Part shown: positions 8,756-41,131 of the stretch, in pieces
Layout of the letters: each line of letters begins with the position of its first letter
How positions within the stretch are numbered: the first letter of the stretch is position 1
Assembly: GCA_902587565.1 (NCBI GenBank)
Contig: CACILT010000008.1
Location: forward strand, 1 to 41,279
DNA: 41,279 nt
Origin: an uncultured Alphaproteobacteria bacterium
GTDB taxonomy: Bacteria; Pseudomonadota; Alphaproteobacteria; HIMB59; GCA-002718135
Direction of reading: 5' to 3'
The notes under the pieces: generated by a model
Seen by the model: the letters and a program-made list of their open reading frames with translations, nothing else
What the model was told of the DNA's origin: nothing
Database searches by the model: none
Translations under genes and position numbers: made by a program

Positions 8756-9543
8756 TTATGATTAAAGAAAAATAATTGTTTTCCATTTACTCGATAATTA
8801 TTAATCAATCTTTTTGCTTCTTCTGATGTAATCCAATCAATATATTTTTTAGCCTCTTCAATATTTAAATTATTATTTGTCTTATTGCTTACTAAAATTA
8901 TTCCATATTGATTAAATAATGGCGGTAAATTTTCACAGACAATTTGTAGATTTTCTTTTTTATTAAAAGCTATCCAAGTGCTACGATCACTAAGAGTGTA
9001 CGCTTTTTTTTGATTGGCTATTAACAATGTAGATCCCATTCCCTGACCTACACTGAGATACCAATTTTCTTTAAATGGTATTTTTATATTTGATAATTCC
9101 CAAAGTTCTTTTTCTTTTTTATGCGTGCCACTCTCATCACCTCTAGATACAAATAACAATTTTGATTTTTTAATTTCAATCATTTTATTTTCAATTGAAG
9201 AGCATGTTTTTTTATCTTTTTTCGGTCCTATCAAGACAAAATCATTATACATCAAATCATGTCTAAGAATTCCATACCCTTTATTCATAAATTCTAGTTC
9301 TGATTTTTTATGATGAACTAATAAAATTTCAACATTACCATCCATTGCAACTTTAATTGCCTGTCCTGTTCCAAGAGATAAGGCTCTAACTTTTGTCTCA
9401 TATTTATTTTCAAATTTTTTGTTAATATATTCTAATAAACCCGTATCGTGAGTAGAAGTTGTGCTAGCTATGGTTATATATTTATTAGCAAATGCATTCT
9501 TAATCAAAAATATTAAAATGAATATTAGAAAAACTCTAATCAT
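8752..9543 (-). CDS. TupA-like extracytoplasmic oxyanion (tungstate) binding protein
   Basis: A periplasmic solute-binding protein of the PBP-like tungstate group (TupA/WtpA type). It has an N-terminal signal peptide (hydrophobic residues 3-19, ending NAFA). The mature start ITIASTTSTHDTGLL is the family hallmark, providing the Ser/Thr side chains that bind the oxyanion, followed by ALSLGTGQAIKVAMDGNVE, LLVHHKKSE and SRGDESGTHKKE. 263 residues. No TupB permease or TupC ATPase gene is adjacent, so it is an orphan here; the partner may be elsewhere, or the protein may act as a sensor or with another transporter. The specificity (tungstate, molybdate or other) is inferred from family only. Confidence 0.87.
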   Translation of the reverse strand: MIRVFLIFILIFLIKNAFANKYITIASTTSTHDTGLLEYINKKFENKYETKVRALSLGTGQAIKVAMDGNVEILLVHHKKSELEFMNKGYGILRHDLMYNDFVLIGPKKDKKTCSSIENKMIEIKKSKLLFVSRGDESGTHKKEKELWELSNIKIPFKENWYLSVGQGMGSTLLIANQKKAYTLSDRSTWIAFNKKENLQIVCENLPPLFNQYGIILVSNKTNNNLNIEEAKKYIDWITSEEAKRLINNYRVNGKQLFFFNHN

Positions 9544-28413: not shown

Positions 28414-29121
28414 ATGAAAGTTGATAAAGATCAAATATCAGCATGGGGTGTTCATGCCTTCACTGGTTCTGGAGCAATACTTGGGTTTCTTGCTTTAATA
28501 TCAATATTAAATAATGATCAAGTTGGTAGTTTTTTATGGCTTGGAATGGCATTACTAGTAGATGGAGTTGATGGGACATTAGCTAGAAAGGTTGGAGTTG
28601 AAGAAAAAGCACCAAATCTAGATGGGATTATTTTAGATTCTATTATTGATTATCTAAATTACGTTATTAACCCAGCTTTAATGATTTACTGGTTTCAGAT
28701 GGTACCATCAGGTTTTGAAATGATTATGCCTGCTCTTATATTTGGAGTTTCTTTATACACTTTTATCAACGTTAATATGAAAACGGATGATTATTATTTC
28801 CAAGGCTTTCCTGCAGTCTGGAATGTTGTGGTTTTATATTTCTTTATATTAAATACGAATGAATGGATAAACCTAATTGTGATAATTGTTCTATCAGTAT
28901 TGACATTCGTTCCATGGAAGTTTGTTCATCCACTAAGAGTAAAATCATTTAGAAATTTAACGATTTTTTTTACTGTTGTTTGGGCAGCAACAACACTTCG
29001 ATTAGTAACAAAATCAGAAATAAACTTAATTATAAATGATACAATTGTTCTTTTAATATGGTTAATTTGTACGGGCTATTTTATTTATATTTGTTTTCTT
29101 AGATCGATAAAAGACTATTAA
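28414..29121 (+). CDS. pcs: phosphatidylcholine synthase
   Basis: Condenses CDP-diacylglycerol with choline to phosphatidylcholine in the inner membrane. The 235-residue protein has about eight helices and the CDP-alcohol phosphatidyltransferase motif in its PCS form: VDGVDGTLARKV (DG..AR, about residues 50-58), followed by the PNLDGIILDSIIDYLN block with the spaced Asp residues. The VHAFTGSGAILGFLAL N-terminus also fits bacterial PCS. An inverted repeat AATGAT...ATCATT lies just before the start. It ends 105 bases before the riboswitch region, with no clear terminator between. Confidence 0.92.
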   Translation: MKVDKDQISAWGVHAFTGSGAILGFLALISILNNDQVGSFLWLGMALLVDGVDGTLARKVGVEEKAPNLDGIILDSIIDYLNYVINPALMIYWFQMVPSGFEMIMPALIFGVSLYTFINVNMKTDDYYFQGFPAVWNVVVLYFFILNTNEWINLIVIIVLSVLTFVPWKFVHPLRVKSFRNLTIFFTVVWAATTLRLVTKSEINLIINDTIVLLIWLICTGYFIYICFLRSIKDY

Positions 29122-29149
29122 AACCGTAAGTAATTCAATATTATTTTGT

Positions 29150-29168
29150 ATATGCAAAAAATGCATAT
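29150..29168. promoter_or_regulatory. palindrome upstream of glutamine riboswitches
   Basis: ATATGCA (29150-29156) and TGCATAT (29162-29168) are perfect 7-base arms separated by AAAAA. There is no U-run, so it is a poor terminator. The position, 58 bases upstream of the first aptamer, suits a transcription-factor operator of the ATP-grasp operon; the regulator is unknown and this is inference. Confidence 0.35.
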
Positions 29169-29223
29169 CAAATAAGTATGAAATTCATTTTTAAAAATAA
29201 ATAAATTTTATTAATAAAATTTC

Positions 29224-29277
29224 ATCGTTCATTTTGAATAATTCAAAACGGAAGTAAACGAAAGTTGAAGGAACGCA
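29224..29277 (+). ncRNA. glutamine riboswitch aptamer 1 (glnA RNA motif)
   Basis: P1 is formed by CGTTC (29226-29230) and GAACG (29271-29275). P2 is TTTTGA (29232-29237) with TCAAAA (29243-29248). The conserved CGGAAGTA (29249-29256) follows, then P3 AAC-GAAA-GTT with a GNRA-type loop, then the conserved GAAGGAACGC. These invariant blocks and their order match the glnA glutamine-binding aptamer known from cyanobacteria and marine metagenomes. It is the first of two tandem copies 67 bases apart. Confidence 0.9.
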
Positions 29278-29290
29278 TGCAAGTTATTAA

Positions 29291-29343
29291 ATCGTTCAAT
29301 CTGTATTAACAGATCGGAAGTAGGCTAAAGCTGAAGGAACGCG
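29291..29343 (+). ncRNA. glutamine riboswitch aptamer 2 (glnA RNA motif)
   Basis: P1 is CGTTC (29293-29297) with GAACG (29337-29341). P2 is ATCTGT (29299-29304) with ACAGAT (29309-29314), loop ATTA. CGGAAGTAGGC (29315-29325), a short P3 (GC-TAAA-GC), and GAAGGAACGCGG follow. The sequences of P2 and P3 differ from copy 1 while pairing is kept, which is covariation support within the window. Two aptamers in series may sharpen the response to glutamine. Confidence 0.92.
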
Positions 29344-29360
29344 GATCTTATTATTAATTT

Positions 29361-29412
29361 CCATAGCTAAGCATGAATTATAACGGATAAGAAAGGTTTG
29401 TTATAACTATGG
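29361..29412 (+). promoter_or_regulatory. hairpin masking a leader start codon (putative riboswitch expression platform)
   Basis: The contiguous 3' strand GTTATAACTATGG (29400-29412) can pair with TTATAAC (29378-29384) and CCATAG (29361-29366), with an 11-base bulge on the 5' side. It includes the ATG at 29409-29411 of the leader ORF. The loop 29385-29399 holds AAAGG. TCTTATT (29346-29352) just after aptamer 2 could pair instead with GATAAGA in the loop, a possible switch. Folding was done by eye. Confidence 0.55.
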
Positions 29413-29471
29413 TTAAAAAGTTAGATAATAAAAAGATAATCTATTCAAATCTCAAGAGGTTTACTCCCTGA
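29409..29471 (+). CDS. 20-codon leader ORF coupled to the ATP-grasp gene
   Basis: It starts at the ATG within the hairpin, reads MVKKLDNKKI then IYSNLKRFTP, and ends at TGA (29469-29471), which overlaps the ATG of the ATP-grasp gene (TGATG). The SD of the main gene (AAGAGG, 29454-29459) lies inside this ORF, so translation of the leader would open it and reinitiate. A short ORF after glnA-type RNAs recalls the cyanobacterial Downstream-peptide RNAs, although I cannot show homology. Lys makes up a quarter of the residues. Confidence 0.45.
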   Translation: MVKKLDNKKIIYSNLKRFTP

Positions 29472-30877
29472 TGTTTAATGAAATGTATCAATCTGAATCA
29501 GTTATAAGAAATCATTATAACAATATTAATGATTGGTTAGATCAAATGACTTCAAAAGTTATTCTTGAAAAGAATGCTGAAGCTGAAACTCATTTTAGAA
29601 ATATTGGAATTACATTTTCTACAAATAACGAAACGGCAAGAGAAAGAATTATTCCGTTTGATTTAATTCCAAGGATATTTACCTATACTGAATGGTTAAG
29701 ATTAGAAAGAGGAGTAATCCAAAGAGCTAAAGCACTTAATGCATTTCTTGCCGATATTTATAATCAAGGTGAAATAATAAAAGCTAATATAATTCCTAAA
29801 GAAATTATTTACAAAAAAAAATCTTTTGAACCTTCAATGTTTGGTTTTTCTCCTCCCAGAGATATCTATAGTCCTATAATTGGTATTGATTTAGTAAGAA
29901 CAGGTCCCAATGATTATTTTGTTTTAGAAGATAATTGTCGAACACCAAGTGGTGTTTCTTACATGCTAGAAAATAGAGAAATAATGATGCGAATGTTTCC
30001 TGATTTATTTCACAACAACAGAGTAACACCAATAGATGACTACCCAACAAGACTTTTGCAAACCTTGATGAGTTTAGCTCCTATTAAATGTGAAAATCCA
30101 GAACCAGTATGTGTGTTACTTACACCTGGGCCTTTAAATAGCGCTTATTACGAACATAGTTTTTTATCAGATCAAATGGGTATTGAAATGGTTGAATCAA
30201 CTGATTTATTTGTTGAAGGAAAATATCTTTATATGAAAACAGTTGATGGTCCAAAAAGAGTAGATGTTGTTTACAGAAGAATAGATGACGATTTTTTAGA
30301 TCCTCTATGTTTTAATCCTCAATCTGTAATTGGTATTCCAGGAATTATGGATGTTTATAGAACAGGTGGTGTCAATATCTGTTCAGCTCCTGGAGCAGGC
30401 ATAGCTGATGATAAAGCAATTTATATTTATGTACCTGAGATGATTAAATTTTATTTAGGCGAACAACCAATCTTAGATAATGTTGAAACATGGAATTGCG
30501 AAAAGGAGCAAGAATTAAAATATGTTTTAGATAATATAAATGAACTTGTCGTAAAAGAGGTTGATGGATCTGGAGGTTATGGGATGTTAATAGGTCCAAA
30601 ATCTTCTAAATCCTCTATAGATGAATTTAAAACAAAACTCTCAACAAATCCAAAAGGATATATAGCTCAACCTTTACTTGATCTTTCATTTTCACCAACA
30701 CTAATCAAAAATCAAGTTGAAGGAAGAAGGGTAGATTTACGTCCATTTTGTTTAATTGGAGAGCAAGCTCAATTAAGTTCTGGTGGCTTAACTAGAGTTG
30801 CAATGAATGAAGGTTCGTTTGTTGTAAATTCTAGCCAAGGAGGCGGTGTGAAAGATACATGGGTTTTGGCTGAATGA
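29471..30877 (+). CDS. circularly permuted type 2 ATP-grasp protein
   Basis: A probable ATP-dependent carboxylate-amine ligase (DUF404/DUF407 family), 468 residues, cytoplasmic. Family blocks in order: FNEMYQSESVIRNHY at the start, RIIPFDLIPRIFTYTEW near 60, the strong YFVLEDNCRTPSGVSYMLEN near 152, MDVYRTGGVNICSAPGAGIADDK near 297 and VVKEVDGSGGYGMLIGP near 362 (the permuted nucleotide-binding loop), then RPFCLIGEQAQLSSGGLTRVA near 423. The product is unknown; in many bacteria it is cotranscribed with alpha-E and transglutaminase-like partners, as here. It is preceded by two glutamine aptamers and a coupled leader ORF, which suggests induction when glutamine is low. The alpha-E gene follows after 9 bases. 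Confidence 0.92.
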   Translation: MFNEMYQSESVIRNHYNNINDWLDQMTSKVILEKNAEAETHFRNIGITFSTNNETARERIIPFDLIPRIFTYTEWLRLERGVIQRAKALNAFLADIYNQGEIIKANIIPKEIIYKKKSFEPSMFGFSPPRDIYSPIIGIDLVRTGPNDYFVLEDNCRTPSGVSYMLENREIMMRMFPDLFHNNRVTPIDDYPTRLLQTLMSLAPIKCENPEPVCVLLTPGPLNSAYYEHSFLSDQMGIEMVESTDLFVEGKYLYMKTVDGPKRVDVVYRRIDDDFLDPLCFNPQSVIGIPGIMDVYRTGGVNICSAPGAGIADDKAIYIYVPEMIKFYLGEQPILDNVETWNCEKEQELKYVLDNINELVVKEVDGSGGYGMLIGPKSSKSSIDEFKTKLSTNPKGYIAQPLLDLSFSPTLIKNQVEGRRVDLRPFCLIGEQAQLSSGGLTRVAMNEGSFVVNSSQGGGVKDTWVLAE

Positions 30878-30886
30878 GGAATAAAA

Positions 30887-31822
30887 ATGTTAAGTAGAAC
30901 TGCTGAATATCTATATTGGATCAGTCGTTATATGGAAAGAGCTGAAACTACAGCCAGGCTTTTGGATGTTGGTTATAGAATGTCTCTTTTTCCAAATCCA
31001 AGTGGTTATAATAATGAATGGGAATCAGTTTTATCAGCTGCTGGTGCAATTGAGGGATATAAAAATAAATATGATACAATTGAACAGAAAAATGTGGAAG
31101 ATTATTTATTTTTTGATGAAAGTAATCCTTCATCTGTTTACAATTGTATTCTTAATGCACGAAATAACGCATTAGTAGTTAGAACTTCCTTCACCCCTGA
31201 GTCTTGGTTAGCAATTAATAAAACTTATCAAGAGATACTAAACTTAAAAGAAAAAAAATTTACAAAATCTGATTTACCTGATCTGACTGAGTGGACAATA
31301 GAACAAGTAAACTTATTTAGAGGATCATTAAGTTCTTTGCTTAGAAATGATGGTTATAATTTTCTTTTCCTTGGTTTATTTATTGAGAGGGCTGATAATT
31401 CTGCTAGATTATTAGATGTAAAGTATTTTGTTTTATTACCCAAGCCTCAATATGTAGGTGGTAATATCGATAATATGCAATGGAGTATATTGCTTCGCTC
31501 CTTATCTTCTTTTAGAGCTTTTAGATGGGCATACGATGGTAATATTACCGCAACTAAAATTGCTGACTTTTTAGTTTTAAATAATAATTGTCCTAGATCT
31601 TTAAGTTTTTGTATTCAGAATATTGTTAAACATTTAACTAACCTAACATGCAGTCCAGAAAAAGTTAGAAGAATTTATAATAATTTAAAAGATCTAAATA
31701 CTAAAATTCAAGAAGAAAAAATAGAAACTATTGTTGAATATGGACTTCATCAATTTGTAACACAATTTATTAGAAAAATATCTAGTGTTGATAACGAAAT
31801 ACATAAGGAGTTTTTTAATTAA
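30887..31822 (+). CDS. alpha-E domain-containing protein (DUF403)
   Basis: A 311-residue all-helical protein of the alpha-E family, found almost always beside permuted ATP-grasp proteins. The N-terminal signature is LSRTAEYLYWISRYMERAE, continuing TARLLDVGYRM; the internal repeat FLGLFIERADNSARLLDVKYF near residue 160 mirrors it, as expected for the family, and LPRSLSFC-type NCPRSLSFCIQNIV near 233 closes it. No catalytic residues are known. An SD (GAGGAAT) lies just before the ATG. The function is inferred to be support or substrate delivery for the ligase. Confidence 0.93.
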   Translation: MLSRTAEYLYWISRYMERAETTARLLDVGYRMSLFPNPSGYNNEWESVLSAAGAIEGYKNKYDTIEQKNVEDYLFFDESNPSSVYNCILNARNNALVVRTSFTPESWLAINKTYQEILNLKEKKFTKSDLPDLTEWTIEQVNLFRGSLSSLLRNDGYNFLFLGLFIERADNSARLLDVKYFVLLPKPQYVGGNIDNMQWSILLRSLSSFRAFRWAYDGNITATKIADFLVLNNNCPRSLSFCIQNIVKHLTNLTCSPEKVRRIYNNLKDLNTKIQEEKIETIVEYGLHQFVTQFIRKISSVDNEIHKEFFN

Positions 31823-31823
31823 T

Positions 31824-32663
31824 ATGAAACTAATAATCGAACACACAACTAAGTATGAATATAAAAATCCAGTTGCGGGATTAATTCAAACCACTAAACT
31901 GCATCCTTCAGAATATAATGGTCTTAAAATTCTAGAGTGGAATGTCCATAATGACTCAGCCAAAAAATCAAAAATTTATCAGGATGGTGAGGCTAATAAT
32001 ATTCAAAGTTTTACAAATACAAACAAGGTGAAAAAAATACAATTTACAGTTCTTGGAAAAGTTGAAACATTTGATACAAAAGGAATTTACCAAAGTGCTT
32101 CTGATAAAATAGATCCATTAGTTTACTTAAGAGAATCAAATTTAACAAAAGCAAATGCGGATATAAAAAATTTAGCTATTGAAGCTAAGAATGGTTTTAA
32201 TGAAAATGAAAATCTAGAAACATCTCATAATCTGATGAATCTAGTAGCTGAAACAATTGAATACAAACCTTTAACGACAAATAATCAAACAACAGCAATT
32301 GAAGCATTTAAACAGAAAAAAGGAGTCTGCCAGGACCAAGCGCATATTATGATTTCAGCTGCAAAAACATTGGGAATTCCAGCCAGATACGTAAATGGCT
32401 ATATGCACAATAATTCCCATTCTTCAGAGTTTCAATCTACACATGCTTGGGCTGAATTTTATATAAATGATTTAGGTTGGGTAGGATTTGATCCAACAAA
32501 TAAATGCAGTCCTGATGAAAGATACGTACGTGTTTCATGTGGACTTGATGCTAGTTACGCATCACCTATTAAAGGTGTTTTTTATGGAAATACCAATAAT
32601 GATGCTGTGATAGAAAACTTAGATATTCATGTACAAACATTAGAAAATAACATTCAACAATAA
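31824..32663 (+). CDS. transglutaminase-like cysteine protease-fold protein
   Basis: A 279-residue protein with an N-terminal bacterial transglutaminase domain (MKLIIEHTTKYEYKNPVAG, ending near residue 85) and a papain-like core. The catalytic Cys is in KKGVCQDQAHIM (about residue 168), His in STHAWAEFYI (about 203) and Asp in GWVGFDPTN (about 218). I chose the ATG at 31824 rather than 31785 because the family starts with this strand and AAGGAG (31805-31810) precedes it; the upstream ATG would overlap the alpha-E gene by 38 bases. The enzyme may cleave or transfer gamma-glutamyl or isopeptide bonds; with the ligase it suggests making and reclaiming an amide-linked product. Confidence 0.9.
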   Translation: MKLIIEHTTKYEYKNPVAGLIQTTKLHPSEYNGLKILEWNVHNDSAKKSKIYQDGEANNIQSFTNTNKVKKIQFTVLGKVETFDTKGIYQSASDKIDPLVYLRESNLTKANADIKNLAIEAKNGFNENENLETSHNLMNLVAETIEYKPLTTNNQTTAIEAFKQKKGVCQDQAHIMISAAKTLGIPARYVNGYMHNNSHSSEFQSTHAWAEFYINDLGWVGFDPTNKCSPDERYVRVSCGLDASYASPIKGVFYGNTNNDAVIENLDIHVQTLENNIQQ

Positions 32664-32717: not shown

Positions 32718-33080
32718 ATGTTTCAAAATAAAAAACAACTTCAGTACTTATGGATTTTTAAACCTGAACTTAATGATATTGCAAAAAGAATTGCAGAAGA
32801 TCATACAAAATGGATGAATGAAACACATACAAAAGAGGGTGATAAAGCACTTCTAATGTTAAATTGGTCCATTGGCCCTGAATTCAAAGATGGTAATAAA
32901 ACAGGCAATATGTCTCTAATCTTAACAGAAGTTTATGAAAATCAAGCAGGAATAGATGATCATTTTGAACAAGCACAAAACAATGGAGCAACTTTTAGAG
33001 ATGATTTTAATGATTTTGAAAGTAAATGTGAAAATTTAGTAAAAATTAATAGTTCAGATATTATCAATTCAATGTGGTAA
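32718..33080 (+). CDS. small soluble protein, possible ferredoxin-like fold
   Basis: A 120-residue ORF with an SD (AAAGGA) before its ATG. It has alternating strands and helices (LQYLWIFKPELNDIAKRIAED, ALLMLNWSIGPEF, MSLILTEVYENQAGIDDHFEQ) resembling the dimeric alpha-beta barrel of ABM-type proteins, but no active-site signature is visible. It lies 54 bases after the transglutaminase gene on the same strand, so it may belong to the glutamine-controlled operon. I do not recognise a specific family. Confidence 0.65.
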   Translation: MFQNKKQLQYLWIFKPELNDIAKRIAEDHTKWMNETHTKEGDKALLMLNWSIGPEFKDGNKTGNMSLILTEVYENQAGIDDHFEQAQNNGATFRDDFNDFESKCENLVKINSSDIINSMW

Positions 33081-33190: not shown

Positions 33191-33586
33191 ATGGAAATAG
33201 AAAAAATTTTTAAAAATTTAATTTTAGCAGACTTTATTGTTATAATTTTAATGGTTATATCATCTATGTACCAACCATCAGAAATTACTAATCTTTATGA
33301 AAATTTGAATGATGGATTGTTATCTAATTTTGAAAATTTTTCTCGAATTGTATCCATTAGTTTATTCTTTTTATATCTATTTACTTTAAATTTACTTTAT
33401 AGATTTATCTCTTACAGCAAACCACTGTATTTATTTTTAGTAGTAGCTGGCATAGTTCTTAATTTTTTTAGTGGTTCTGTTATCTATACTGCTTTTAGTG
33501 GAATGCTTGATCAAATAGGTGGTCTCATTAGTGGAGCAATTTTAATACTTTTGTATTTTTCACCAGTCAAAGATAATTTTAGATAA
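33191..33586 (+). CDS. four-helix membrane protein, function unknown
   Basis: A 131-residue protein with predicted helices at residues 9-27, 52-73, 78-96 and 102-124. The start follows an AT-rich leader without a clear SD. Its arrangement (a longer periplasmic loop after helix 1 containing MYQPSEITNLYENL) loosely recalls DUF4386-type proteins but is too short for a confident match. Function not known. Confidence 0.65.
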   Translation: MEIEKIFKNLILADFIVIILMVISSMYQPSEITNLYENLNDGLLSNFENFSRIVSISLFFLYLFTLNLLYRFISYSKPLYLFLVVAGIVLNFFSGSVIYTAFSGMLDQIGGLISGAILILLYFSPVKDNFR

Positions 33587-33699: not shown

Positions 33700-34092
33700 A
33701 TGGCAAGAACACTAGCGAAAATAATAATAGGCATACTAAGTTTATGGGCATTGGTATCTGTAATTGCAGAAATTATGGGTGTAACTATTTTTTTTCCATT
33801 TAATGTTGTTGAAAAACAGGAGATACCTTATTATCGCGTAGCCTCCGTTAGATTATCTGTACTCTTAACATTTGCATATTTTGGCTTTAGATATTTATTT
33901 TTTCAATCCGAAAAATTATTTCCGATACAGTTTCTTGATGTTTATATAAAATCTTTGACTATTTGTGGTTTTTTTGTTTTTTATACAAGTCAAGTTGAGA
34001 TTAGAGAATATTACTTTGTTTTATTCCTTTTTATAGTTTCTATAATTTTACATTTTGCATCTAGAAATAAAATCAGAAGTTATTTTAATTAA
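33700..34092 (+). CDS. four-helix membrane protein, function unknown
   Basis: A 130-residue inner-membrane protein beginning MARTLAKIIIGILSLWALVS, with further helices at about 48-68, 82-98 and 104-122. Charged loops and Arg-rich ends are consistent with positive-inside orientation. I do not recognise it. It ends directly in front of the hairpin terminator at 34094. Confidence 0.65.
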   Translation: MARTLAKIIIGILSLWALVSVIAEIMGVTIFFPFNVVEKQEIPYYRVASVRLSVLLTFAYFGFRYLFFQSEKLFPIQFLDVYIKSLTICGFFVFYTSQVEIREYYFVLFLFIVSIILHFASRNKIRSYFN

Positions 34093-36329: not shown

Positions 36330-37124
36330 ATGGACAAATTACTACAAAGATCGAAAGGAAATATTAATATTGAATTATTAGATAATACTTTTAAAAAATT
36401 TTATCAAAGTGGTTGTTGTAAAATTTTAAATCCAAATAATTATAATGAAAGTAACGAATTAGTTTTAATTAATACAGCAGGTGGAATAACTTGCAATGAT
36501 AATATTGAAATTAATGCCGTAATTAATAATTCCGAGTTAAGTATTTGCACTCAAGCTGCTGAAAAAATTTATGCAGGAATTGGTGATCCAGCAACAGTAG
36601 AAATAAATATTAATTTAAATAACTCTTCTTTGTATTGGCTTCCAAAAGAATTAATTCTATTTGATAAATCAAAATTAAGAAGAAAAATTAATATTAATTT
36701 ATCAGGTAATTCTAATTTGATTTTTTGTGAAACATCAATTTTCGGAAGAAAAGCAATGTCAGAGCAGATTAAAAATATTTTATTTTCTGATCAATGGAAA
36801 ATAAATGTCAATTCTTCTTTAAAACATTTTGAGGCTATCAATATGCATGGATCAATGACTGATAATTATAAGAATAATTATACATTTGCTAATAAATCCG
36901 CTTTATCAACAATTCTAATATTTGGTGAAATTATTCATCAAGTTGAGTCTGAATTAAGAAAAATAATAGAAAACATAGAAAATCATTATTGTGAGATGAC
37001 AATATTTGACGATAAAATTATTATCAGAAGTTTATCAAATGACAATTATGATTTAAAAAAAACACTAAATTTTATTATTAAAAATATAATTCATGATAAA
37101 CTTCCCAAGAGTTGGGATTTGTAA
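36330..37124 (+). CDS. ureD: urease accessory protein UreD
   Basis: The nickel-delivery scaffold that docks on the urease apoenzyme with UreF and UreG. The 264-residue protein shows the family's LINTAGGITCNDNIEINAVI near residue 50 and TQAAEKIYAG near 75, where the TTQAAEKVYR-type motif is conserved, then WLPKELILFDKSKLRRKI near 105 and FCETSIFGRKAM near 131. Divergent but complete. First gene of the operon; ureA begins on the base after its stop. The 48-base gap to the tRNA shows no SD, which is common here. Confidence 0.92.
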   Translation: MDKLLQRSKGNINIELLDNTFKKFYQSGCCKILNPNNYNESNELVLINTAGGITCNDNIEINAVINNSELSICTQAAEKIYAGIGDPATVEININLNNSSLYWLPKELILFDKSKLRRKININLSGNSNLIFCETSIFGRKAMSEQIKNILFSDQWKINVNSSLKHFEAINMHGSMTDNYKNNYTFANKSALSTILIFGEIIHQVESELRKIIENIENHYCEMTIFDDKIIIRSLSNDNYDLKKTLNFIIKNIIHDKLPKSWDL

Positions 37125-37427
37125 ATGAAATTAACGCCTAGAGAAAAAGATAAGTTGATGGTCAGTATGGCAGCTAATGTTGCTAGAAAACGTCTAGAAA
37201 GAGGTGTTAAACTTAATTACCCGGAAGCTATAGCTCTTATAACAGATTTTGTCATAGAGGGTGCAAGAGATGGAAAAATGGTATCTGAATTAATGGAAAC
37301 AGGTGCTCATGTGGTTAAAAAAGAAGATTGCATGGACGGAATTCAAGATATGATTCCTGAGGTACAAGTAGAGGCAACATTTCCAGATGGAACAAAATTA
37401 GTAACAGTACATAAACCGATTAGATAA
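37125..37427 (+). CDS. ureA: urease gamma subunit
   Basis: The smallest structural subunit of urease. The 100-residue protein is full length and highly conserved: [40 protein letters not shown], and the [20 protein letters not shown] end. It is separate from UreB, as in most bacteria (not fused as in Helicobacter). The ATG follows the ureD stop directly and its own stop overlaps ureB (TAATG). Confidence 0.98.
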
Positions 37428-37738
37428 TGAAACCTGGTGAAATAATAACAAAACAAAATAGTGATATTAATTTGAATGATGAAAGACAATCAATCACTTT
37501 AAAAGTTTCAAATAGTGGAGATCGACCAATACAAGTTGGAAGTCATTATCATTTTGCTGAAACAAATGAATATTTACAATTTGATAGAGAAAAATCAAAT
37601 GGTATGCGTTTAGACATACCATCTGGAACTGCTGTTCGATTTGAACCTGGTCAATCAAAAGACGTAGAATTAATTCCAATAACTGGAAATAGAAAGATAT
37701 TTGGTTTTAATAAGAAAGTTATGGGTCAATTGAAATGA
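37427..37738 (+). CDS. ureB: urease beta subunit
   Basis: The beta-sandwich structural subunit. 103 residues: [20 protein letters not shown], then the signature [20 protein letters not shown] (about residues 28-47), [17 protein letters not shown], and the GFNKKVMG end. The GSHYHF block contacts the alpha subunit's flap. Coupled to ureA by a 1-base overlap and to ureC by 4 bases (ATGA). Confidence 0.98.
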
Positions 37739-39441
37739 AAAAAATAAAAAGAGAAGCTTATTCCGATATGTATGGACCAACAACTGGAGATAAAATTAGA
37801 CTGGCTGACACTGAGCTTTTTATTGAAGTGGAAAATGATTTAACGAATTATGGTGAAGAGGTAAAATTTGGTGGAGGAAAAGTCATTCGAGATGGAATGG
37901 GACAATCTCAAGTATCTCGTAAAGATGGTGCTGTTGATACAGTTATAACAAACGCCTTAATAGTAGATGTAAATGGAATTTATAAAGCTGACATCGGAAT
38001 CAAAGATGGCTTGATTAATGAAATTGGCAAAGCAGGAAATCCAGACACACAACCAAATGTAAATATTATTATTGGACCAGGAACAGAAATAATTGCAGGT
38101 GAGGGAAAAATTATCACAGCAGGAGGATTTGATAGTCATATTCATTTTATTTGCCCTCAACAAATTGATGATGCTCTACATTCAGGCATAACAACGATGT
38201 TGGGTGGAGGAACTGGACCTGCACACGGTACTTTGGCAACTACAGTTACACCTGGACCATGGCATATAGAGAAAATGATACAATCAGCTGATGCGTTTTC
38301 TATGAACTTAGCTTTTGCAGGAAAAGGAAACAGTTCATTATCTCAAGCTCTTGAAGAACAAGTAATTGCTGGTGCAAGTTCACTAAAATTACATGAAGAT
38401 TGGGGTACAACTCCTGCAGCAATTGATAATTGTTTAAATGTTGCTGATGAACACGATATACAAGTTATGATTCACACTGACACGTTAAATGAAAGTGGAT
38501 TTGTAGAGAGTACAATTAAAGCAATTAATAGAAGAACCATTCATGCATTTCATACAGAGGGAGCAGGGGGAGGTCATGCACCAGATATTATAAAAGTTTG
38601 CGGTGAGGAATATGTTATTCCATCATCAACAAACCCAACAAGACCGTATACTGTTAATACAGTTGAAGAACACTTAGATATGTTAATGGTTTGTCATCAC
38701 CTTGATAAATCAATACCTGAAGATGTTGCATTTGCTGAAAGTCGTATTCGTAAAGAAACCATTGCTGCAGAAGATATTCTCCATGACATGGGTGCATTTT
38801 CAATTATTGCGTCTGATAGTCAAGCAATGGGTCGTGCTGGCGAAGTTATTATTAGAACATGGCAAACTGCACATAAAATGAAAGTTCAAAGGGGACAATT
38901 AAAGGAAGAGCAGGGCGATAATGATAATTTACGTGTTAAACGTTATATAGCTAAATATACAATTAATCCTGCAATTGCTCATGGTATTTCCGATCATATT
39001 GGCAGTATTGAAAAGAACAAACGTGCAGATATTGTCATTTGGGACACAGCTTTTTTTGGTGTTAAGCCTGAAATGGTTTTGCAAGGTGGAAGTATTTCTT
39101 GTTCACAAATGGGTGATCCTAATGCCTCAATTCCAACACCACAACCAGTGTATTCAAGACCAATGTTTTCTTCTTTTGGAAAATCATTAGAAAAATCTAC
39201 TGTCACTTTTGTTAGTAAAGTTTCTTTAGATAAAGACTCATTTAAAAACTCCGGAGTAAGTAAATCTTTATTACCTGTTAAAAATATTAGAAAAATTTCT
39301 AAAAAAGATATGATATTAAATGATTATTGTCCAAAAATAGAAGTGAATCCAGAAACTTATGAAGTTTTAGCAGACGGTGAATTAATTACTTGTGAGCCAG
39401 CTGAAACACTACCTTTGGCTCAACGTTATTTTATGTACTAA
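37735..39441 (+). CDS. ureC: urease alpha subunit (catalytic)
   Basis: Hydrolyses urea to ammonia and carbamate at a dinickel site. 568 residues, full length. Nickel ligands and catalytic residues are intact: His135 and His137 in [10 protein letters not shown], the carbamylated Lys218 in [11 protein letters not shown], His in MIHTDTLNE, His in [15 protein letters not shown], the flap His in [20 protein letters not shown], and Asp in [11 protein letters not shown]. The N-terminal [20 protein letters not shown] is the family opening. No sign of decay. The stop is one base before the ureE start. Confidence 0.99.
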
Positions 39442-39442
39442 A

Positions 39443-39886
39443 ATGTATACTTCATTCAAAATTATTCATCACAATAATAGTCATGAAGTATTTGATGAAA
39501 TTTCACTATCTTATGAAGAAAGATTTATTCGTAGAAAAAAACTTATAGCAAATAATGGTACTGAATTTTTAGTTAATCTTGAAGAAACCGTCAGTATTGA
39601 TGAAAATCATTATTTTGAATTAGACAATGGAAAATTAATTAAAGTTATATCTAAAGAAGAAAATTTAATTGAAATAACGGGTGATAATTTAAAGCAAATC
39701 ATATGGCATATAGGAAATAGACATCTGCCATGCCAAATTGAAGAAAACAGAATTCTTATTCAAGATGATGCTGTAATTCTTGATATGATTCTAAAATTAC
39801 ACGGAAATGTAAAAAAAGTTTTTGAAAAATTTAAACCTGAAGGTGGTGCTTATGGTATGGGCAGAACACATAGTCACAAACATTAA
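39443..39886 (+). CDS. ureE: urease nickel metallochaperone UreE
   Basis: Binds and delivers nickel to the UreDFG-apoenzyme complex. I take the ATG at 39443, one base after the ureC stop, rather than the ATG 51 bases further upstream, because the family begins with this strand (MYTSFKIIHH). 147 residues with the motif IWHIGNRHLPCQIEENRILI (about residues 91-110) and the conserved His in LKLHGNVKKVFEKFKPE; this is the UreE N-/C-domain pattern. The C-terminus ends in a short His-rich tail HSHKH, a modest nickel-buffering site. ureF starts one base after its stop. Confidence 0.94.
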   Translation: MYTSFKIIHHNNSHEVFDEISLSYEERFIRRKKLIANNGTEFLVNLEETVSIDENHYFELDNGKLIKVISKEENLIEITGDNLKQIIWHIGNRHLPCQIEENRILIQDDAVILDMILKLHGNVKKVFEKFKPEGGAYGMGRTHSHKH

Positions 39887-39887
39887 A

Positions 39888-40523
39888 ATGAAGAAATTTA
39901 AAGATCCTCATCAAATACTACAAGTATGGTTTTCATCCTCTTTTCCTATTGGTTCTTACGCATATTCCCATGGTTTAGAAGCTCTGATTGATGATAAAAA
40001 AATTAAAAATAGAGACGATGTTAAAGAATTTTTAGATGCGCTTTTATTTTATGGGACATTAAGAAATGATTATATTTTTATGAAATCTATTTACAAAAGT
40101 GAGGAAATTAATGAATTAATCTTAGGAAGTGCTTCTTCGAAAGAAAGGCAAATAGAAATGATAGATATGGGAAATTCTTTTCGTAAAATCATGAAAGATA
40201 GTTGGGAATTATCTCTACCTGAAAATACATCATTTATATATTGTTTGGCAAAAGCTGGATTACATTTTGACATTAAGTTTGATGATTTAATTAAGTTTTA
40301 TCTACAATCATTCATTTCTAATTTAATAAATGTATGTGTAAAACATATACCAATGTCTCAAAAAGATGGACAGAGTCTAAATGTTATTTTTATTAATCAA
40401 ATTCAAAATTTTTTAAATCAATCTGATAAACTAACTATTAAAGATATAGGTACAACTTTTTTTATTGGTGATATTTATGCAATTAAGCATGAAAATTTAG
40501 ACTCAAGGATTTATTTAACGTGA
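39888..40523 (+). CDS. ureF: urease accessory protein UreF
   Basis: A GTPase-regulating partner of UreG within the urease activation complex. The ATG at 39888, one base after ureE, gives 211 residues; a longer in-frame form would overlap ureE by 65 bases. The conserved opening is [20 protein letters not shown] (about residues 11-30), followed by the helical body and [18 protein letters not shown] near 146, where the family has the V(R)..PLGQ.D.Q block. Divergent mid-region but otherwise complete. Confidence 0.93.
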
Positions 40524-41131
40524 ACAATATAAATGGTCCGTTAAAAGTTGGTATAGGTGGTGGGATAGGGACTGGTAAAACTAGTTTAACAGAAGCATTA
40601 TGTCGTCATTTATCTAAAAAAGTTTCTATGGCAGTTATTTCAAATGATATTTATACAACTGAAGATGCGGAATATTTAATGAAAGCACAAGTGCTACCTA
40701 TAGAGAGAATTAAAGGTGTTGAAACTGGTGGATGTCCACATACGGCTATAAGGGAAGATTGTAGTATTAATCTACTTGCAGTTGATGAAATGAAAAAAAA
40801 ATTTCCAGATTTAGATTTAATCCTTATTGAATCTGGTGGTGATAATTTAGCTGCAACTTTCAGTCCAGAGTTAGTTGATTTAACAATTTATATGATTGAT
40901 GTTGCACAAGGTGCAGACATACCGAGAAAAAAAGCACCAGCTATTAAAAAATCTGATTTACTCGTAATTAATAAAGTTGACCTAGCTCCATATGTTAATG
41001 TTGATTTAGAGCAAATGAAACAGGATGTGAATGAAGCCAGAAACGGGTTACCCTATATTTTTGGTGAAATGAAAAATAATAACGGAATTGAAAAAATTTC
41101 TGACTTCTTAACTTCTCAAGGTGGATTATAA
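40520..41131 (+). CDS. ureG: urease accessory GTPase UreG
   Basis: A SIMIBI-class GTPase that couples GTP hydrolysis to nickel insertion. It starts with GTG at 40520, overlapping the ureF stop by 4 bases (GTGA); no in-frame ATG lies nearby that keeps the P-loop. 203 residues: P-loop [13 protein letters not shown] (about residues 11-20), where GPVGSGKT is usual, [13 protein letters not shown], the nickel-binding [17 protein letters not shown] (Cys-Pro-His), [19 protein letters not shown], and the guanine motif [11 protein letters not shown] (NKVD). It ends next to a convergent gene. Confidence 0.97.

Follow-up and report, generated by a model that had tools for sequence, protein, structure and literature searches.

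Type-1 glutamine riboswitches, or glnA RNAs (Rfam RF01739), are already known as an aptamer, and so are their links to glutamine synthetase (GS), PII, glutamate synthase and ammonium-transporter genes and their occurrence in tandem copies, as described in the accessible parts of the relevant report (PMC2864571). Glutamine riboswitches have been counted as 157 doublets and 4 triplets in a study likewise available in part (PMC9481103), and the accessible portion of a third paper describes copies encoded by SAR11 and OM43 phages, where they are linked to tmRNA (PMC9004378). A related aptamer, Glutamine-II or Downstream-peptide (RF01704), has a short ORF downstream (PMC2864571, accessible parts). 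Since tandem glutamine riboswitches are already known, the aptamers described here are ordinary members of their class, and this tandem riboswitch is interesting mainly for its circuit.

The window, by which we mean the whole stretch of 41,279 nucleotides that was analyzed, belongs to an uncultured, streamlined marine alphaproteobacterium. It contains the following leader and operon:

29224..29279, plus strand: glutamine riboswitch aptamer 1 (RF01739, cmscan 66.0 bits, E 1.4e-12)
29291..29345, plus strand: glutamine riboswitch aptamer 2 (RF01739, cmscan 64.2 bits, E 4.4e-12)
29409..29471, plus strand: small upstream ORF MVKKLDNKKIIYSNLKRFTP, whose stop overlaps the ATP-grasp start (TGATG)
29471..30877, plus strand: circularly permuted ATP-grasp protein of 468 aa, first main gene of the operon (PF14403, E 4.4e-153)
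30887..31822, plus strand: Alpha-E (former DUF403) protein (PF04168, E 9.4e-87)
31785..32663, plus strand: transglutaminase-like protein (PF01841, E 6.7e-24; PF08379, E 3.7e-12)

Judged from its sequence, this is a genuine tandem glutamine riboswitch. The initial annotation had described two copies of the glnA aptamer pattern 67 bases apart, with stems P1, P2 and P3, and with P2 sequences that differ but pair in both. All of this holds under the covariance model: the RF01739 matches start 67 bases apart, both score far above the gathering score of 35 and span positions 1-53 of 53 with P1-P2-P3 and the conserved junctions present, no non-standard pair is marked in either cmscan alignment, and the two P2 stems pair despite their different sequences. 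In aptamer 1, the P1 CGTTC/GGAACG core corresponds to 29226-29275. When positions 29100-29500 are scanned alone the same two matches return (E 1.3e-14 and 4.2e-14). Two complete aptamers of one class, at 29224-29279 and 29291-29345, share a single leader. The Downstream-peptide model, which had been suggested alongside the glutamine one, was also run, and an RF01704 identity is rejected by its best score of 16.8 bits against a cut-off of 33. Beyond the initial annotation lie the regulon, an additional helix proposed for the linker, the repeated association with the ATP-grasp operon and the absent protein glutamine sensing.

The small ORF MVKKLDNKKIIYSNLKRFTP has no Pfam match, and the transglutaminase-like ORF overlaps the Alpha-E gene, its start codon being uncertain. 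In leaders of the ATP-grasp class a small ORF begins just after a hairpin and, in 26 of the 26 unique leaders examined, an ORF of divergent sequence ends at most 12 nt from the main ATG, which suggests that the upstream ORF and the ATP-grasp gene may be translationally coupled. Further along the window, three small ORFs 3' of the transglutaminase gene (32718-33080, 33191-33586 and 33700-34092) have no Pfam or NCBIfam match, and a urease set (ureD, ureA, ureB, ureC, ureE, ureF and ureG) stands in line at 36330-41131, beginning 3.7 kb past the transglutaminase gene of the riboswitch operon. ATP-grasp, Alpha-E and transglutaminase domains co-vary with urea genes in marine metagenomes, according to the accessible part of that study (PMC3597751). 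An Rfam match to 5_ureB_sRNA (37884-38173, minus strand, 95.4 bits against a cut-off of 40) lies antisense inside the urease alpha-subunit gene (37735-39441), and it probably reflects conserved urease coding sequence, not a small RNA.

The regulon within the genus and beyond it

The window leader is one of about four leaders in a genus-wide regulon to which glnA and two amtB genes also belong. The genome from which the window comes (1.2 Mb, 70% complete) has six RF01739 matches, arranged as three tandem pairs. The other two pairs each lie upstream of an ammonium transporter gene, the transporters being in line; TIGR03644 of NCBIfam ('probable ammonium transporter, marine subtype') recognizes one of them, and the other matches PF00909. 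The initial annotation had proposed to look for the same leader in relatives, and this search found RF01739 in 36 of 37 genomes of the genus (f1; 55-89% complete) and also in G220, a further genome of it that is 96% complete; 83 of the 88 leader clusters parsed from fetched loci of the genus are tandem. By class, these 88 clusters divide into glnA (28), amtB (35), ATP-grasp (20), a third Amt (4) and one that is cut; the five single-aptamer clusters are the four before the third Amt-type gene and the one cut by a contig end. The tandem riboswitch of the glnA class sits between glnB and glnA. G220 has eight matches, which pair up in four leaders, those of glnA, of two amtB genes and of the ATP-grasp gene. 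In each of the 21 genomes of the genus in which PF14403 was matched (20 from the parsed clusters, and G024), an RF01739 element lies upstream of the ATP-grasp gene (in G025, a contig end leaves one aptamer of this leader). The alphaproteobacterial host read earlier from the flanking genes also stands: some contigs of the genus bear the deposit label 'uncultured Alphaproteobacteria' (single cells), and others come from a MAG deposited as 'Pelagibacteraceae'.

Several loci of the genus deserve separate mention. G015 (82% complete), the sole genome of the 37 without RF01739, is also without PII, GlnD, GlnE and CP-ATP-grasp matches. The third-Amt leaders (L157, L180, L225 and L229, the gene being named by eye) carry a single aptamer and a different downstream region. 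Between the two riboswitch-led amtB genes of L007, a 124 aa ORF without NCBIfam match (8783-9157, minus strand) may, by eye, be a winged-helix regulator.

Outside the genus, RF01739 was found in none of the 24 genomes of the sister family (f2, same order). In the class, 6 of 385 sampled genomes carry it: two of the genus and four of another family (f10), the latter with a single aptamer before an ORF series that resembles the window operon. For one of these genomes (L262, G300) all three domains, ATP-grasp, Alpha-E and transglutaminase, were confirmed by Pfam, which also found them in AG-903-D15 (L058), a single cell near-identical to it. A single aptamer likewise precedes a CP-ATP-grasp gene in the alphaproteobacterial single cell AG-337-E20 (L112, 56.7 bits), and CP-ATP-grasp plus Alpha-E genes in the SAR86 cell AG-337-P19 (L119, 61.5 bits). 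With aptamers before ATP-grasp in the genus, in f10, in L112 and in SAR86, the link between riboswitch and operon occurs in at least three lineages, and this recurrence makes nitrogen status a functional clue for the CP-ATP-grasp/Alpha-E/transglutaminase operon.

Named genomes were scanned with an aptamer pattern, the matches listed being a lower bound, and 18 loci were re-checked by covariance model: 14 pass the RF01739 gathering score, and L061, L105, L116 and L118 have no match at that score. Among the matches listed, the aptamer is placed in SAR116 (L038), SAR86 (e.g. L070, L100 and L132) and other Gammaproteobacteria (L056, L114 and L124), and many further matches are cyanobacterial by title. 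It precedes a glutamine-synthetase-domain gene in L114, L124 and L132. Named hosts are thereby given to glnA RNAs before GS, PII and ammonium-transporter genes, which came earlier from unassigned marine sequences. The expectation of the initial annotation, that the locus would help to tell which hosts carry these RNAs, was sound, given that a 2018 review still described the GS, PII and ammonium-transporter associations as restricted to environmental sequences (PMC6316151).

Other arrangements of aptamers were also seen. Three RF01739 aptamers stand in a row in L100 (7358-7532, plus strand; SAR86) and in L075 (2171-2345, minus strand; deposited as Pseudomonadota). Seven tandem leaders from SAR86 and other proteobacteria (L055, L065, L086, L098, L137, L152 and L155) have a parsed linker of about 9 nt or less, and several of them closely precede a short ORF. 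The gammaproteobacterial tandem leaders L114 and L124 have a 24 nt linker with an apparent hairpin of its own, before the glutamine-synthetase-domain gene. In Alphaproteobacterium TMED109 (L069, 7118-7289), the two aptamers lie 118 bases apart and the linker contains an extra A/T-rich hairpin.

Protein glutamine sensing in the genus and its sister family

GlnD, GlnE and Tyr51 of PII are parts that sense or transmit glutamine, and all three separate the genus from its sister family, in what is one evolutionary contrast between two families of incomplete genomes. GlnD (TIGR01693) is found in 0/37 genomes of the genus, and not in G220 either, versus 24/24 in the sister family (23 over the model cut-off and one just under), and GlnE (PF03710) in 0/37 versus 22/24. 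PII is present in both (29/37 and 23/24), with the T-loop ELYRG motif that holds Tyr51 in none of the 27 genus proteins read versus 21 of 21 in the sister family. The gap between glnB and glnA measures 232-253 nt in 26 loci of the genus, where it is filled by the tandem riboswitch, versus 38-44 nt in 21 loci of the sister family. In the GS adenylylation region of the genus the tyrosine is retained and its DLP context is not (by pattern and by eye). The best 120 of 7999 proteins scored with the genus PII are near relatives. Sigma-54 activator domains were also considered as a contrast between the two families and dropped, with matches, many of them weak, in 56 of 61 relatives.

These findings point to RNA-based glutamine sensing in place of protein-based sensing, and the two sister families allow testing of this idea. 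Our best reading is that RNA does the glutamine sensing in the genus, most likely as an OFF switch; it would perform there the task performed by the GlnD/GlnE/PII-uridylylation cascade in the sister family. In a stronger version, RNA would have taken over cellular glutamine sensing in the genus: with GlnD, GlnE and the uridylylation site of PII lost, tandem riboswitches with a dedicated linker helix would report glutamine directly to the ATP-grasp operon, glnA and the two amtB genes. We give this version an even chance.

Alternatively, the loss of GlnD, GlnE and Tyr51 and the riboswitch regulon could be unrelated results of genome streamlining, a possibility that we take seriously while holding it doubtful. 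It would fit with the class at large, where just three of the 108 genomes (out of 385) without a GlnD match carry RF01739 (G000, G220 and G380, the last being absent from the full match list), as do three of the 277 with GlnD (G068, G201 and G300); it would also fit with the contrast being a single one between families. Yet what is absent is the machinery that senses glutamine or passes the signal on, whereas PII persists in 29/37 genomes, and the riboswitch sits between glnB and glnA. Also, the genomes of L114, L124 and L132, in which the aptamer precedes a glutamine synthetase gene, show no GlnD match, their completeness not being stated. Absence of GlnD does not hold as a general rule for riboswitch carriers, as 7 of 20 other proteobacterial carriers and 3 of the 4 f10 genomes have it.

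Helix PL and the direction of control

Three further features of the window leader lie between and behind the aptamers:

29276..29287, plus strand: linker, 5' strand of the proposed helix PL (CATGC at 29276-29280, A, AGTTAT at 29282-29287)
29363..29375, plus strand: 3' strand of the proposed helix PL (ATAGCT at 29363-29368, AA, GCATG at 29371-29375)
29378..29406, plus strand: hairpin H, just 5' of the first start codon (TTATAACGGAT / GTTTGTTATAA, minimum-energy fold)

Across leaders, a linker consensus CATGC-(1-3 nt)-AGTTAT is complementary to ATARCT-(2-3 nt)-GCATG past aptamer 2, around which PL would close. Leaders of glnA, amtB and ATP-grasp genes alike have the conserved 3' segment past aptamer 2, and among the tandem leaders of alphaproteobacterial type that were parsed, 105 of 105 contain both strands (102 found by pattern, plus the mis-parsed L156, L179 and L233 with linkers read by eye; L101, counted among this type, is deposited only as Proteobacteria). 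In the alignment of distinct cores (89 among 114 unique tandem leaders, taken as 88 plus the window, which replaced L040), MAFFT places the linker one base off from class to class, so PL pairs were counted on pattern-anchored strands. In the 102 leaders, 1110 of 1122 pair cells (98.9%) are standard, versus 12-43% when one strand is slid by 1-3. Leaving aside six of the 114 leaders with parsed linkers below 8 nt and the three mis-parsed ones, 105 were scored for a linker duplex, and in 102 of them the best duplex between linker and downstream region is PL or a close variant (median z -3.1 versus shuffles). PL forms in the minimum-energy fold predicted for the window leader, a fold that as a whole does no better than shuffles (z -0.84). 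In the window, the Shine-Dalgarno-like AAGAAAGG lies mostly within the loop of hairpin H, and hairpins of differing sequence occupy the same position in other leaders inspected by eye. A self-hairpin within the 3' segment of PL was discarded, as by eye it fits amtB and ATP-grasp leaders and not glnA leaders.

The aptamer pattern missed six tandem loci (L062, L069, L070, L075, L088 and L100). Both PL strands are present in L062 and L088, and L070 and L100 have no CATGC/GCATG pair. With its 63 nt linker, L069 retains CATGC/GCATG with the second part shifted, a weak result in that 24 of 500 shuffles match its duplex. SAR116 L038 carries complementary PL segments, and its AmtB is 64-75% identical to three AmtB proteins of the genus type.

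It is conceivable, although we find it unlikely, that PL is not an RNA helix and that something else, for instance binding of a protein or recent common descent of the leaders, explains the conservation of its segments. Indeed, six of its 11 pairs never vary, no two-sided compensatory change occurs across the 102 leaders, and the median PL probability under unconstrained folding is 0.96 in amtB leaders, 0.35 in ATP-grasp leaders and just 0.06 in glnA leaders. PL is also found in 0 of the 9 other parsed tandem leaders (Gammaproteobacteria or unassigned proteobacterium), which indicates that tandem function does not need it. Still, two separated segments remain complementary across three gene classes and in SAR116 L038, and TMED109 keeps CATGC/GCATG and a shifted second part over its longer linker. 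At the pairs that vary, the changes are one-sided and mostly preserve pairing, from T-A to T-G (T-A 34, T-G 68) and from A-T to G-T, with breaks at pair 10 in five leaders, pair 11 in six and pair 6 in one. PL remains a proposed helix, and with it we put forward a testable composite architecture for tandem riboswitches.

In the mechanism that we favour, the two tandem type-1 aptamers would sense L-glutamine and set the expression of the CP-ATP-grasp/Alpha-E/transglutaminase operon. Both aptamers would bind glutamine, which would give a pseudo-cooperative (steeper) response, and PL, closing around aptamer 2, would relay their occupancy to the start region. Control would act at the translation start rather than through intrinsic termination; a pattern scan of the window leader found no intrinsic terminator. 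The linker seems to be part of a shared downstream helix, an observation relevant to the idea of two separate expression platforms.

As to direction, high glutamine would lower expression, and overall an OFF switch is probable. The targets are assimilation genes, which supports this direction. Support also comes from L112, where the conserved aptamer 3' strand GAAGGAACG, ending 3 nt before the ATG, would be the Shine-Dalgarno sequence of the ATP-grasp gene, and where the modelled openness of the start region falls from 0.89 with P1 forbidden to 0.61 with P1 forced. As a general guide to direction, this folding approach was abandoned: in the 104 modelled leaders with a recognized gene class, openness was equal with P1 forced or forbidden (median difference 0.00 in each class). 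Five f10-type leaders showed no difference between bound and free states in the model, and a candidate f10 antisequestor seen by eye (TCTTTC against the aptamer's GAAGGA) was not favoured by the fold.

The same riboswitch could have the opposite sign, with glutamine turning the operon ON, if PL, favoured when aptamer 2 is folded, tied up an anti-start segment whose alternative pairing partner is the ribosome site. The 3' segment of PL pairs with the start region in many glnA leaders, which would make PL an anti-sequestor: the median pairing energy in this class is -10.0 kcal/mol, and at the median leader 0 of 146 other start regions pair as well. CTATGG, which covers the start of the upstream ORF in the window, has its complement in CCATAG of the 3' strand of PL. 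The known cyanobacterial glutamine riboswitches, of type 1 and type 2 alike, activate expression (PMC6316151). We nevertheless judge an ON switch rather unlikely. The anti-start pairing is weak in the other classes, where 14% (amtB) and 9% (ATP-grasp) of the 146 background regions do as well, it does not hold for divergent glnA leaders, L135 being one example (34/146 as good), and L112 looks built as an OFF switch. Moreover, the expression of glnA and amtB is expected, from general knowledge, to drop with glutamine, not to rise.

Finally, chance similarity without any riboswitch can be dismissed almost entirely, with E about 1e-12 obtained twice, 67 bases apart, and conservation in 36/37 genomes of the genus. 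Taken together, we regard as the likely explanation a tandem glutamine-sensing leader that would act as an OFF switch on translation, with RNA sensing replacing the protein cascade. If the stronger version given above is true, riboswitches would stand at the center of nitrogen control in a proteobacterium, and the ATP-grasp/Alpha-E/transglutaminase system, which is poorly understood, would be connected with nitrogen status.

Comparison with known systems

Within the open-licence literature searched, and as far as these searches show, the new elements are the host assignment with its regulon, the repeated association with ATP-grasp genes, the proposed PL, and the coincidence with absent GlnD, GlnE and Tyr51. 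For glutamine riboswitches in Alphaproteobacteria, this literature, accessible in part, returned the phage study (PMC9004378) and a Clostridioides difficile paper, and the accessible main text of the AEGEAN-169/HIMB59 clade paper contains no riboswitch, glutamine or PII (PMC10308909). We found there no report of glutamine riboswitch control of a CP-ATP-grasp/Alpha-E/transglutaminase operon, a target that the accessible parts of PMC2864571 do not name; the accessible parts of PMC9481103 make no mention of a helix between linker and platform.

Compared with the known RF01739 RNAs, whose whole model both window aptamers match, the locus differs in its host, an alphaproteobacterial genus, in the PL helix and in its target, the ATP-grasp operon. 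It shares with RF01704 a related aptamer and a short ORF downstream, but scores below the cut-off of that family. The tandem glutamine riboswitches described so far share its doublet arrangement, to which the alphaproteobacterial doublets examined here add a linker that would pair past aptamer 2. With the riboswitches of SAR11 and OM43 phages it has in common the aptamer class and a marine alphaproteobacterial setting, although here the riboswitches precede chromosomal nitrogen genes and there they belong to phages and tmRNA. Lastly, the window shares the three domains of the known CP-ATP-grasp/Alpha-E/transglutaminase peptide modification operon, and differs from it in that this copy stands behind a tandem glutamine riboswitch.
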